Source: Clostridia bacterium
GTDB lineage: Bacteria > Bacillota > Clostridia > Oscillospirales > Acutalibacteraceae
Length of the DNA stretch: 35,245 nucleotides
Assembly: GCA_017423825.1 (NCBI GenBank)
Contig: JAFPCP010000052.1
Span: 1-35,245, forward strand
Direction: 5' to 3'
Shown: positions 7,171 through 16,333 of the stretch, piece after piece
Layout: each line of letters opens with the position of its first letter
Numbering within the stretch: position 1 is the stretch's first letter
Position numbers and translations under genes: made by a program
Notes under the pieces: generated by a model
The model's database searches: none
Told to the model about the DNA's origin: nothing
What the model saw: only the letters and a program-made list of their open reading frames with translations

Positions 7171-7944
7171 ATGGATATGCAAATTCTTTGCGTAGGAGAT
7201 GTTGTGGGGAGCGCCGGTTGCGCTCACTTGGAGCAGGTGCTCCCGCGGGTTAAGCGGGAATTGGCTGTGGATGTGTGTGTCGTCAACGGTGAAAATGCGG
7301 CGGATGGAAATGGGATAACCCCCCTTGCGGCACAGCGTATTTTTGCCGCCGGTGCTGACGTGATTACGGGTGGCAACCACACCTTCCGTCGACGTGAATT
7401 TTATGAGTGTTTAGAGGAGAATGAAACCCTCTTACGCCCCGCCAACCTGCCACAGGGTGCACCCGGGCGCGGCATGACGGTGGTGGATCGCGGTCGCTAT
7501 CAGGTGACCGTCATCAACTTACAAGGCACCGTGTATATGGAGTCTTTGCGTTGTCCGTTTGAAACGCTGGATGCCTTGCTGGAAGAGGCGGGAAATCCGC
7601 GTTTTTGCGTGGTGGATTTTCACGCGGAGGCGACAGCGGAGAAAAAGGCACTCGCTTTTTACGTGGATGGGCGGGTTTCTGCTGTGTATGGCACCCACAC
7701 GCATGTTGCCACGGCGGACGAGCAAATTTTGCCGCAAGGCACCGGCTTTATCACGGATGTCGGCATGACCGGTCCGATGGTGTCTTGCCTGGGTGTAGAG
7801 CCCGCGCTTGCGATTGAAAAAATGCGCACCAAGCTGCCGGTACGGTTTGCTGTGGCAGAAGGTCCCTGCGCCATGGATGCAGTATTATTTACGCTGGATG
7901 ATGCTACCGGTCGCACGATGGAAGTGCGGCGTGTGCGGATTTGA
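7171..7944 (+). CDS. ymdB: YmdB family metallophosphoesterase
   Basis: A 257-residue calcineurin-like phosphoesterase of the YmdB/TIGR00282 type, which in Bacillus hydrolyses 2',3'-cyclic nucleotides and affects biofilm choice. Metal-binding motifs are visible: GDVVGSAG at the N-terminus, NGENAADGNGI, TGGNHTF, DFHAEATAEKKALAFYVDGRVSAVYGTHTHV (the terminal GTHTHV carries the paired His) and TDVGMTG. The start is the ATG at 7171 or the ATG six bases on at 7177; AAGGGG at 7161-7166 lies 4 or 10 bases away respectively, and the second gives the usual family beginning (Met-x-Ile-Leu). It is followed 17 bases later by the DUF6062-like gene, with which it is probably co-transcribed. Confidence 0.92.
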   Translation: MDMQILCVGDVVGSAGCAHLEQVLPRVKRELAVDVCVVNGENAADGNGITPLAAQRIFAAGADVITGGNHTFRRREFYECLEENETLLRPANLPQGAPGRGMTVVDRGRYQVTVINLQGTVYMESLRCPFETLDALLEEAGNPRFCVVDFHAEATAEKKALAFYVDGRVSAVYGTHTHVATADEQILPQGTGFITDVGMTGPMVSCLGVEPALAIEKMRTKLPVRFAVAEGPCAMDAVLFTLDDATGRTMEVRRVRI

Positions 7945-7961
7945 TAAAGGAGGGGTTTCGT

Positions 7962-8657
7962 ATGCGTTACGATATCACAAACATCCCGGTTGCCGAGATG
8001 TTTGAACAGCGGGACGGTTGCCCCATCTGTCGTATCCGCAACATGCTTGAAGAACGGGCGGTAGAGTATATCACCGGCGCCGCGATGATGGAGCCGGATA
8101 TCCGTATGGAAACCAACAAACAAGGGTTCTGTTTAGACCATTATCAGCAGATGATCAAAAAGCGCAATCGGCTCAGCGTGGCGCTCATGTTGGAAAGCCA
8201 CCTGGACGAGATAGCGGCAAACCGCTTGTCCGGCCGGCCGGCGCCCGCCAAGCGTTCCCGCAAGGCGGCCGGGCAATCCGAGGGGGAGCGGTCGCATTGT
8301 TACATATGTACCCAGTTGGAGGACGGCATGCAGAAAATGCTCGCCACCGTTTGCCGCACCTGGGAAGCGCAGCGCGATTTTCAGCGCTTGTTTGAAGAAC
8401 AGCCTTGCCTGTGCTTGCCGCATTTCACCGCCCTGGCACAAGCGGCTGACATACATATCAGCAAGAAAGAGCGGAGTTATTTTGTCAAAGCCGCGTCCAA
8501 TCTGGCAAAAGGCTATTTGGAAAATGTGCGTGCCGACGTGCATCACTTTTGCGAGATGTATGATTATCGCAATGCCGGCGAGAATGCCGATTGGGGTAAT
8601 TCCAAAGACGCGATCGAGCGTGCTGTATGGTATTTGACCGGGCGCTCGCTGGAATAA
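7962..8657 (+). CDS. Conserved Clostridia protein, DUF6062-like, with duplicated CxxC/CxxH modules
   Basis: A 231-residue protein I recognise as the DUF6062 type found in Clostridia; no function is established. Two similar cysteine modules are visible. The first has Cys20-x2-Cys23 (CPIC) followed about 35 residues later by Cys57-x2-His60 (GFCLDH); the second has Cys113-x2-Cys116 (CYIC) followed by Cys151-x2-His154 (CLPH). The order and spacing (34 and 35 residues between pairs) suggest an internal duplication with one metal, probably zinc, per module. The two halves are joined by a basic, Ala/Pro-rich linker (residues 91-110). The C-terminal third is helical. Start is ATG 7962 behind a strong AAAGGAGGGG. 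It follows ymdB directly and ends at a bidirectional terminator. Confidence 0.8.
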   Translation: MRYDITNIPVAEMFEQRDGCPICRIRNMLEERAVEYITGAAMMEPDIRMETNKQGFCLDHYQQMIKKRNRLSVALMLESHLDEIAANRLSGRPAPAKRSRKAAGQSEGERSHCYICTQLEDGMQKMLATVCRTWEAQRDFQRLFEEQPCLCLPHFTALAQAADIHISKKERSYFVKAASNLAKGYLENVRADVHHFCEMYDYRNAGENADWGNSKDAIERAVWYLTGRSLE

Positions 8658-8715: not shown

Positions 8716-8988
8716 TTATAAAGCTATATGCTGGAACAGCCATAACAGCGCGGCGCCCATTCCGGTGAAGAACAACCCAAACAAGCCTCGTTGCAACCAT
8801 AATCGCCGCCGTTGGCGACGTAATCCGGCGTACGTTTCCGCTTGGCGCACCACCTTTTCCGCCATGCGGTGCAATCCTTCTTCGTTGGTTTGCGCGATAT
8901 CTGCCCGCACGACCAGAAAAGCCCGCTCAAAATAGCGGCTGCCGGTGTTGGTAACCTCTATCATTTGCCGATTAATGCCCTTGATCAA
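8716..8988 (-). CDS. Small tail-anchored membrane protein, conserved in Clostridia
   Basis: A 90-residue protein of unknown function. About 65 hydrophilic residues (MIKGINRQMIEVTNTGSRYF at the N-terminus, then a coiled, charged region ending in GLRRQRRRLWLQR) precede one hydrophobic segment, residues 69-88, that would anchor it by its C-terminus with the basic stretch on the cytoplasmic side. I chose the TTG at 8988 because AAGGAGGG lies seven bases upstream; the next ATG, at 8964, has no SD. From memory the N-terminal motif (Ile-Lys-Gly-x-Asn-Arg-Gln, often from a TTG start) recurs in Clostridia hypothetical proteins, but I cannot verify that. A promoter with some likeness to forespore sigma-F/G sites lies upstream. 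Confidence 0.7.
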   Translation of the reverse strand: MIKGINRQMIEVTNTGSRYFERAFLVVRADIAQTNEEGLHRMAEKVVRQAETYAGLRRQRRRLWLQRGLFGLFFTGMGAALLWLFQHIAL

Positions 8989-9057: not shown

Positions 9058-9102
9058 TGAGTATTACTATCTGTAAAACTTTCTTTGCTGCGTCAGAACG
9101 TG

Positions 9103-9190
9103 TTTTTCACAAAAATTGTGGAAAACTCGGTTGAAAATGTGAAAAACCCTTGATAAATGGGGGTTTACGTTTCGATCGGTTTGTGGATAA
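9103..9190. other. Cluster of four DnaA-box-like 9-mers
   Basis: Within 88 bases four 9-mers match the relaxed DnaA-box pattern TTWTNCACA on one strand or the other: TTTTTCACA at 9103-9111 (direct), and its reverse form TGTGNAWAA at 9117-9125 (TGTGGAAAA), 9138-9146 (TGTGAAAAA) and 9182-9190 (TGTGGATAA, the perfect box TTATCCACA in reverse). The second and third start 21 bases apart, two helical turns. The surrounding interval 8989-9420 has no gene; it otherwise holds small hairpins (AAACCC/GGGTTT around 9145-9167, GGGT/ACCC around 9223-9236), AT-rich runs and the proS promoter. There is no dnaA, dnaN or other origin gene nearby. Confidence 0.5.
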
Positions 9191-9307
9191 AAACCCCATA
9201 CATGACAAGGTGTGATTACTTTGGGTTGAATGACCCTTACAGCAAGCGGTGCATTTCAGGTAGGAGAAATATTTTTTTGTTTTTCAGGAGGAAGTTTGCA
9301 ATTTTGG

Positions 9308-9336
9308 TTGAAAATTCCGGTAAACTTCGGTATAAT
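9308..9336 (+). promoter_or_regulatory. Sigma-A promoter of the proS operon
   Basis: -35 TTGAAA (9308-9313) and perfect -10 TATAAT (9331-9336) with a 17-base spacer. The start of transcription near 9343 leaves a leader of about 78 bases with a weak GTAAT/ATTAC hairpin; it is too short for a T-box and has no GGTGG-type core. Confidence 0.85.
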
Positions 9337-9420
9337 AATATATTGTGTAATTATGTGTATTACGGGCATGGACTGCGCAAGGTGATTTTGGTGTTCTGTC
9401 CCGAAGAAAGAAGGGTCAAT

Positions 9421-10860
9421 ATGGCAGAAAACAAAAAAATGGTGGAGGCCATCACCTCGATGGATGAGGATTTCGCCAAGTGGTATACCGACATTGTGAA
9501 AAAGGCGGAATTGATTGAATATACCAGCGTCAAGGGTTGTATGGTGATTCGCCCTTACGGTTATGCTATCTGGGAGAATATTCAACGCATCCTTGACGGG
9601 ATGTTTAAGGAAACCGGGCATGAAAACGTCAATATGCCTATGTTCATTCCGGAGAGCCTGTTGCAGAAGGAAAAAGACCACGTCAAGGGCTTTGCGCCGG
9701 AGGTGGCGTGGGTTACTCACGGCGGCAGCGAAAAACTGGAAGAGCGGCTGTGCGTGCGTCCCACGTCCGAAACGCTGTTTTGCGAGCATTTTGCTAATAT
9801 TATACATTCTTATCGCGATTTGCCGAAATTATACAACCAATGGGTGAGCGTGGTGCGTTGGGAAAAGACGACGCGGCCGTTTTTGCGCTCGCGTGAGTTT
9901 TTGTGGCAGGAGGGGCACACCGTGCACGCCACCGCCGCGGAGGCTATCGAAGAAACCGAGCGGATGCTGAACGTGTATACGCGCTTTTGCGAAGAATATC
10001 TGGCCATGCCGGTAGTGCAAGGGCGGAAAACCGAAAGCGATAAATTCGCGGGTGCGGAGGCGACCTATTGCATTGAGGCGCTCATGCACGACGGCAAAGC
10101 CTTGCAGGCGGGAACCTCACACTATTTTGGGGACGGCTTCGCCAAGGCGTTCGATATTATGTTCACCGACAAAAACAACGAGAAACAATACGTCCACGAA
10201 ACTTCGTGGGGTATGACGACGCGTTTGATTGGAGCCATTATCATGACGCACGGCGACGACAACGGCTTGGTGTTGCCGCCGGCGGTGGCACCGGTGCAGG
10301 TGGTCATCGTGCCGATCGCTTCGCACAAACCGGGCGTGCTGGACACCGCCGCCGCGCTGAAAGAGCGTCTGGCGAAGGTAGCGCGCGTGAAACTGGATGA
10401 CAGCGACAACAGCCCTGGCTGGAAGTTTGCGGAACACGAGATGAAAGGCGTGCCGCTGCGTTTGGAAATCGGTCCGCGGGATATTGAGCAGAATCAATGC
10501 GTCGTTGTCCGTCGTGACACACGGGAGAAAACCGTGGTATCGTTGGATGAATTGGAAACGCGTATTCCGGCCTTGTTGCAGGAGGTGCGGGATGGCATGT
10601 ATCAAAAGGCGCTGGAAAACCGCGAAAAACGCACCTACGCCTGCACCGAGATGGGGCAGATTACCGCCGCTTTGGAGAAAAACGGCGATGGTTTCATTAA
10701 GGCCATGTGGTGCGGCGACGAGGCGTGTGAGGACCGGGTGAAGGAAGAAACCGGTGTTGGTTCTCGGTGCATCCCGTTGGAGCAAGAGACGTTGGCCGAC
10801 ACCTGCGTGTGTTGCGGCAAGCCGGCCCGTCATATGGTGTATTGGGGCAAAGCGTATTAA
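9421..10860 (+). CDS. proS: Proline-tRNA ligase, short (archaeal/eukaryote-like) type
   Basis: Class II synthetase that charges tRNA-Pro. The 479-residue product is the short form lacking the large bacterial editing insertion. Motif 2 and substrate-pocket segments are visible: [20 protein letters not shown] (shown here as two adjoining parts of the motif region), [27 protein letters not shown], then [17 protein letters not shown] and [16 protein letters not shown], then the anticodon-binding domain ([11 protein letters not shown]...[12 protein letters not shown]) and a C-terminal zinc-like end with CVCCG. The start is the ATG at 9421 with a GAAAGAAGGG SD; an open in-frame extension back to 9157 crosses the promoter and is not coding. 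It heads the plus-strand operon that runs to ddl. Its leader has no T-box. Confidence 0.96.
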
Positions 10861-16217: not shown

Positions 16218-16333
16218 TTGCAGAGTAGACGATGTGCGCTGAGGCGTTTTGCCTCTTAGTGTTGTGGGATGGGAAGTTGCCTACAAACAAGAAACCCGAC
16301 CGGGTTTGTGATGCATCGTTGCATCCGCTGCGG
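16218..16333 (+). promoter_or_regulatory. Tetrahydrofolate (THF) riboswitch aptamer
   Basis: The sequence carries the conserved THF-aptamer elements in order: AGAGTAGACGATG at the 5' side (16222-16234), GGGATGGGAAGTTGCC in the pseudoknot loop region (16266-16281) and GCATCGTTGCATCCGCT at the 3' side (16313-16329). Pairings I can trace: P1 GCAG 16220-16223 with CTGC 16328-16331; P2 16228-16234 with 16314-16320 (seven pairs, one G-U); hairpin GAGGC/GCCTC 16241-16255; TTGT/ACAA 16262-16286; hairpin AAACCC/GGGTTT 16292-16307. It precedes a folate transporter gene, the classic setting for this class, and should turn expression down when reduced folates are plentiful. Confidence 0.92.

Follow-up and report, generated by a model that had tools for sequence, protein, structure and literature searches.

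The gap upstream of proS in the window (the whole 35 245-base stretch of DNA analysed here) contains a rigid array of three same-direction DnaA-box-like 9-mers, GTKGAAAACTCKGTKGAAARTGTKRAAAA. Its 29-bp core is the most conserved part of the gap, the same array is present in the dnaA–dnaN gap (oriC) of relatives, and across the family it accompanies a small divergently transcribed gene rather than proS. This conserved core is probably an origin-type DnaA-binding module situated outside oriC, which would sequester DnaA, control the small gene, or both. Clusters of DnaA boxes outside oriC have been recorded in a few model species and mostly described as loose groups of boxes; the array reported here belongs to this known kind and is new as a rigid version of it.

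Density of DnaA boxes in the gap

The small gene and proS are separated by a gap of 432 bases with a G+C content of 38% (Table 1). An earlier note on this DNA had reported four exact matches to TTWTNCACA within 88 bases of the gap, and all four were found, starting at 9103, 9117, 9138 and 9182; a fifth exact box is located at 9495, within proS. Two of the four, as the note had also stated, start 21 bp apart (9117 and 9138), and this distance is the outer spacing of the three-box array. The note's expectation of about one box per 16 kb was too low: the draft genome (1 372 555 bases in 84 contigs) contains 220 exact boxes, or one per 6 kb, compared with 127 matches to the reversed pattern. The density in the gap is far above chance, as had been claimed. 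Dinucleotide shuffles of the gap (n = 20 000) contained 0.13 boxes on average and none contained four, and uniform placement of the 220 boxes in the genome gave four within 88 bp in one of 20 000 trials. The genome-wide scan proposed in the note placed the interval first: with 217 of the 220 box places read, the four boxes in 88 bp at 9103–9190 form the densest cluster in the 1.37-Mb draft genome, followed by the gaps at mraZ (three in 30 bp), mnmG (four in 197 bp) and dnaA–dnaN (three in 250 bp).

The dnaA gene is on contig C64 and the cluster on contig C35, so that the cluster is outside the dnaA/dnaN region. Reading of the gap by eye revealed no DnaA-trio-type repeat, no unwinding element and no dnaA; because neither a DnaA-trio nor an unwinding element is seen there, the 9103–9190 site is not a second origin. 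The proS promoter, which had been placed about 120 bases beyond the last box, was found about 118 bases on. The frame open from 9157 to 10860 extends proS upstream, and it was not accepted as coding sequence in the gap. Rfam gave no match in the gap at the gathering threshold, and a permissive search returned sub-threshold matches only. Elsewhere in the window, a THF riboswitch (RF01831, 50.5 bits) is located at 16219–16332 on the plus strand, 3' of a Ddl-like gene.

Table 1. Features of the gap upstream of proS and of the genes that flank it
Feature	Position	Strand	Remarks
DUF6062 gene	7941–8657	+	PF19538; no more than 1 kb from the triplet in 14/118 loci, including other genera
Small divergent gene, 90-residue protein MIKGINRQ...	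8719–8988	-	TTG start; partner gene of the triplet
Imperfect palindrome ATTACTATCTGTAAA (family consensus WTACANNNTGTAW)	9063–9077		54 bp before triplet; conserved in genus
Extra box TTTTTCACA	9103–9111	+	Exact TTWTNCACA; in this species only, unconserved in genus alignment
Conserved DnaA-box triplet GTKGAAAACTCKGTKGAAARTGTKRAAAA	9117–9146	-	Same-direction boxes with starts spaced 12 and 9 bp; 29-bp core 9118–9146
Box A TTTTCCACA	9117–9125	-	Exact TTWTNCACA
Box B TTTTCAACC (TTTTCCACC in most congeners)	9129–9137	-	Off-consensus; position and spacing conserved
Box C TTTTTCACA	9138–9146	-	Exact TTWTNCACA; 21 bp from box A
Extra box TTATCCACA	9182–9190	-	Exact TTWTNCACA; in this species only, unconserved in genus alignment
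proS promoter TTGAAA-17-TATAAT	9308–9336	+	11/12 matches; conserved in genus
proS, proline--tRNA ligase	9421–10860	+	TIGR00408, E 1.8e-184

The three-box array and its partner gene

The regions upstream of proS were aligned for this genome and seven congeners in which the small gene adjoins proS. Among the 393 windows of 29 bp in the gap, 9118–9146, which reads GTGGAAAACTCGGTTGAAAATGTGAAAAA, is the most conserved, with a mean column identity of 97% compared with 61% across the gap. The conservation of the boxes in relatives with proS in place, which the earlier note had put forward as a check, thus holds for the unit at 9117–9146, present in all eight species aligned, but not for the outlying boxes at 9103 and 9182. 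The composition of the unit was also recognized only in part, for the 9117 and 9138 boxes belong to it and the off-consensus box between them had been overlooked. In AT-rich relatives all three boxes of the array (TTTTCAACA) deviate from TTWTNCACA.

The array was found at up to three mismatches in all 10 genomes of the genus and at up to two mismatches in 168 of the 250 family genomes, and the reversed control gave none in either search. Two sites recur in the genus. The first is the small-gene gap, in nine of the 10 genomes, with proS on the other side in eight (proS of the congener G005 is interrupted by a contig end), and the second is the gap upstream of mraZ–rsmH, in all 10 (Pfam MraZ and MraW). 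Another patch conserved in the genus, of the type AAAGTT...CCCCTTACA, lies at 9218–9240, past the triplet and ahead of the proS promoter. In several congeners (L003, L005, L006 and L007) the region upstream of proS has, on the 3' side of the triplet, words similar to TTTGTCGAA that resemble the Spo0A box; these are absent in this genome.

Of the 150 family genomes searched, 112 contain the small gene (MIKG[IV]NRQ...), and in 111 of these it gave a single match. Upstream regions were taken from 70 of the 113 places (the first 30 and 40 later ones), and 69 remained after removal of L340, which was too short; 12 places were passed over, namely 11 in which a listed array copy adjoins the gene, and G026. 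Within 600 bp upstream, 57 of the 69 homologues carry the array at up to six mismatches and 12 are without it, whereas none of 690 shuffles reached this level (the best had seven mismatches, seen twice). The array is always divergent, pointing away from the small gene, and in most loci is approximately 80–230 bp from its start, while the neighbour on the other side varies. The neighbours recorded in 118 array loci include the genes for 8-oxoguanine glycosylase (23), the small protein (20), RsmH (15) and DUF6062 (14).

The small protein itself has no match in Pfam or NCBIfam, and a PDB profile search gave one match, at E 0.2. Comparison of 25 homologues with Pfam yielded six families, each matched by one homologue at E 0.0019 or worse. 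AlphaFold2, using 25 homologues, predicted a beta-hairpin and two helices, of which the C-terminal one is long (mean pLDDT 81.5, pTM 0.47), and to judge from its hydrophobic C-terminus the protein is probably membrane-anchored.

The array at oriC and at other sites

From 24 relatives selected because they have large contigs and array copies on the list, the 23 in which dnaA was above the cut-off were taken together with this genome, and the 420 bases 3' of dnaA were searched in these 24 genomes. Ten genomes of five genera (G243, G034, G276, G166, G082, G150, G253, G264, G183 and G016) have the array there at one to four mismatches, and 15 of the 24 have it at up to six. Five of these, this genome among them, are at exactly six. 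The copy in the dnaA–dnaN gap of this genome is therefore a weak one, and none of 400 shuffles matched at up to six mismatches; when the oriC gaps of 22 of the 24 genomes were shuffled, the best match was mostly at 8–10 mismatches and once at six. Among the copies listed, G109, G200 and G146 also have the array at the 3' end of dnaA. A repeat, CTACTACTACTACTA, which we take to be of the DnaA-trio type, adjoins the boxes in the dnaA–dnaN gap of this genome. The DnaA-trio has been described for Firmicutes in the portion of PMC7561715 consulted. The proposal of the earlier note that the cluster is one of the DnaA-box clusters located outside oriC is thus supported by its rank in the genome, by its conserved core, and by the same three-box geometry inside the oriC of relatives.

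Upstream of mnmG the array occurs at five mismatches in this genome (none of 400 shuffles) and at two mismatches in G001. In this genome the region (L097:12550–12880) is a second one dense in boxes: besides the palindrome TTATACAAATTGTATA it has four exact DnaA boxes, together with several GTTGAAAAG/GTGGAAAA units. Upstream of mraZ in this genome (L035:2590–2670), AAGTGG repeats of the MraZ-box type are located beside a reversed DnaA-box triplet, TTTTCCACATTTTCCACACAGTTTTCCACA. MraZ box arrays are composed of AAGTGG-type repeats about 10 bp apart upstream of mraZ. The triplet was rejected as an array of this type: its starts are 12 and 9 bp apart, its units are GTKGAAAA, and the AAGTGG repeats form a separate block at the genome's own mraZ. 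In Bacillus subtilis, DnaA affects the ftsL operon (mraZ homologue yllB).

The distance of the copies from oriC was measured in single-contig relatives, this genome being in 84 contigs. Among the copies listed for five single-contig genomes (2.3–3.4 Mb), those outside oriC at up to two mismatches are separated from dnaA by 11, 146, 147, 195 and 258 kb; for the small gene this distance is 146 kb in G016 and about 21 kb in G129. A count by hand of the 34 non-oriC copies listed for multi-contig genomes placed 14 on the dnaA contig and 20 elsewhere, and distal copies, far from dnaA, may therefore exist.

The imperfect palindrome of Table 1 is located between the small gene and the array. At up to two mismatches, WTACANNNTGTAW was found within 100 bp of the array in 51 of 56 array loci compared with 36% of shuffles, and 32–37 bp before it in 40 of the 56 (approximately 35 bp in most genera). 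At up to one mismatch it was found in 32 of the 56 (26 of them at 32–37 bp) compared with 4% of shuffles. The distances of 54 bp here and 56 bp in G008 exceed the usual one by about two helical turns. In oriC, among 22 of the 24 gaps, a palindrome-like sequence within two mismatches of a looser pattern lies 36–37 bp before the array in G243, G276, G082, G150 and G264. At a distance of 28–60 bp the palindrome accompanies two of 17 mraZ copies of the array and none of nine dUTPase/U32 copies, these context labels being approximate ones assigned by script. The palindrome is a possible site for an accessory protein.

Interpretation of the array

A DnaA-binding module is the likeliest reading of the array, because boxes A and C are exact, the array is present in the oriC of relatives, and copies are located at mnmG and mraZ. 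From these sequences we infer binding and sequestration of DnaA at the triplet and an effect on transcription there. DnaA molecules would occupy the three same-direction boxes in a cooperative, head-to-tail fashion, and in many relatives a second factor at the fixed-distance palindrome would assist them. The array could then be a nearby store of DnaA, copied early and dampening re-initiation. It could also be an operator that couples transcription of the gene for the small membrane protein to the level of DnaA, and the two roles would be mutually compatible. Several points count against the DnaA-binding module: the departure of box B, and of all three boxes in AT-rich relatives, from TTWTNCACA; the 12 homologues of the small gene without the array; the weakness of the genome's own oriC copy; and the 20 of 34 listed non-oriC copies that are off the dnaA contig in multi-contig genomes.

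A plainer form of the same explanation, whose probability overlaps with that of the DnaA-binding module, is that the boxes would merely soak up DnaA, the linkage to the small gene being conserved synteny. The proximity of the copies to oriC in single-contig genomes is consistent with this, as are the six DnaA-box clusters of B. subtilis, which delay initiation and whose loss leads to early initiation according to the consulted portions of PMC5295017 and PMC13220808. However, the array keeps its direction and its distance from the start of the small gene while the other neighbour changes, and we regard plain sequestration as possible but doubtful.

It is distinctly unlikely, in our estimation, that the triplet serves as operator for a DNA-binding protein other than DnaA, one that would bind oriC as well and would control, among others, the small gene, mraZ and mnmG. 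Another oriC-binding protein could be the ligand because box B, and the TTTTCAACA versions in AT-rich relatives, depart from the DnaA consensus. Furthermore, the palindrome at a fixed distance probably implies another dimeric protein, and many copies of the array are in promoter-type gaps far from oriC genes. Against such a ligand, boxes A and C of this genome fit the DnaA consensus without deviation, several genera have the array within the dnaA–dnaN gap, and copies are located at mnmG, whose operon region is bound by DnaA in B. subtilis; the part of PMC4447404 consulted describes binding at oriC, upstream of trmE (trmE–noc operon) and at other strong regions.

The earlier note had also suggested that the boxes form a DnaA-regulated promoter region for proS, and the position of the array, flanked by the small gene and proS in all eight congeners aligned, would agree with this. 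However, the array was found at up to four mismatches in none of the 80 named proS loci from other taxa (up to 2.5 kb on either side), where the best match had five. In the 22 proS loci of relatives L009–L030 (21 loci from other genera and that of G001) there is one copy at two mismatches, and it is past the 3' end of proS (L026). In the congener G001, contig C24 bears the array together with the small gene, and C50 bears proS without an array upstream. Other genera keep the array at the small gene next to other neighbours, such as the 8-oxoguanine glycosylase gene. Given 57 of 69 loci for the small gene against none of 80 for proS, and the separation in G001, the triplet belongs to the upstream region of the small gene and proS is a local neighbour in the genus. 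Thus proS is a bystander, conservation of the array with proS is not found outside the genus, and a role as proS promoter element is very improbable. A chance cluster, which the AT-richness of the gap might favour, is refuted by the conservation of the triplet in the genus and the family and by the absence of four boxes from every gap shuffle, and its probability is negligible.

Clusters of DnaA boxes outside oriC in B. subtilis (Okumura et al. 2012, as cited in PMC5295017, PMC13220808 and PMC4447404) resemble the present site, as far as the consulted portions of these papers describe them, in having several boxes within about 100 bp, in intergenic regions away from dnaA; in single-contig relatives the present array too is near oriC. 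In contrast to them, the site described here has one rigid 29-bp three-box array, common to oriC and family-wide, associated with one small gene and mostly with a palindrome at a fixed distance. B. subtilis is sensitive to such clusters, and no datA or DARS loci are reported for it in the portions of PMC5295017 and PMC13220808 consulted. In Escherichia coli, DnaA boxes are enriched near oriC (PMC12371093, in part). The layout resembles that of datA of E. coli, which, as presented in the excerpt of PMC5742627, combines same-direction DnaA boxes with a second-factor site at a fixed distance, near oriC: there are three such boxes here, and the palindrome, as a putative accessory-factor site, is 32–37 bp away in 40 of 56 loci and 54 bp away in this genome. 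It differs from that description of datA in that the palindrome is beside the triplet and not between boxes, and no IHF-type site was identified. A core of three DnaA boxes is shared with E. coli DARS1 and DARS2 (PMC4585315 and PMC5742627, both consulted in part), but here all boxes have the same direction and starts 12 and 9 bp apart, and no Fis or IHF sites are known. The bipartite oriC of Firmicutes (Clostridioides difficile; PMC7561715, in part) likewise has DnaA-box arrays, and the same triplet is in the dnaA–dnaN gap of relatives; unlike that origin, the 9103–9190 site shows no dnaA, DnaA-trio or unwinding element. A search of titles and abstracts, with few subscription papers, on clusters outside oriC in this clade and in Firmicutes, and on DnaA boxes together with mraZ, did not find the array described.

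A bolder reading, which we consider unlikely though worth stating, is that triplet and palindrome form a composite datA/DARS-like element of a Clostridia family, and that the small membrane protein belongs to the same circuit of initiation control. A protein bound at the palindrome would shape a complex of three DnaA molecules, altering the nucleotide state or the availability of DnaA soon after initiation. One exact geometry is common to oriC and to distant sites and is kept across the family with one partner gene. This gives a defined site, a partner gene and a candidate accessory-factor site with which to probe datA-like control of DnaA in Firmicutes.
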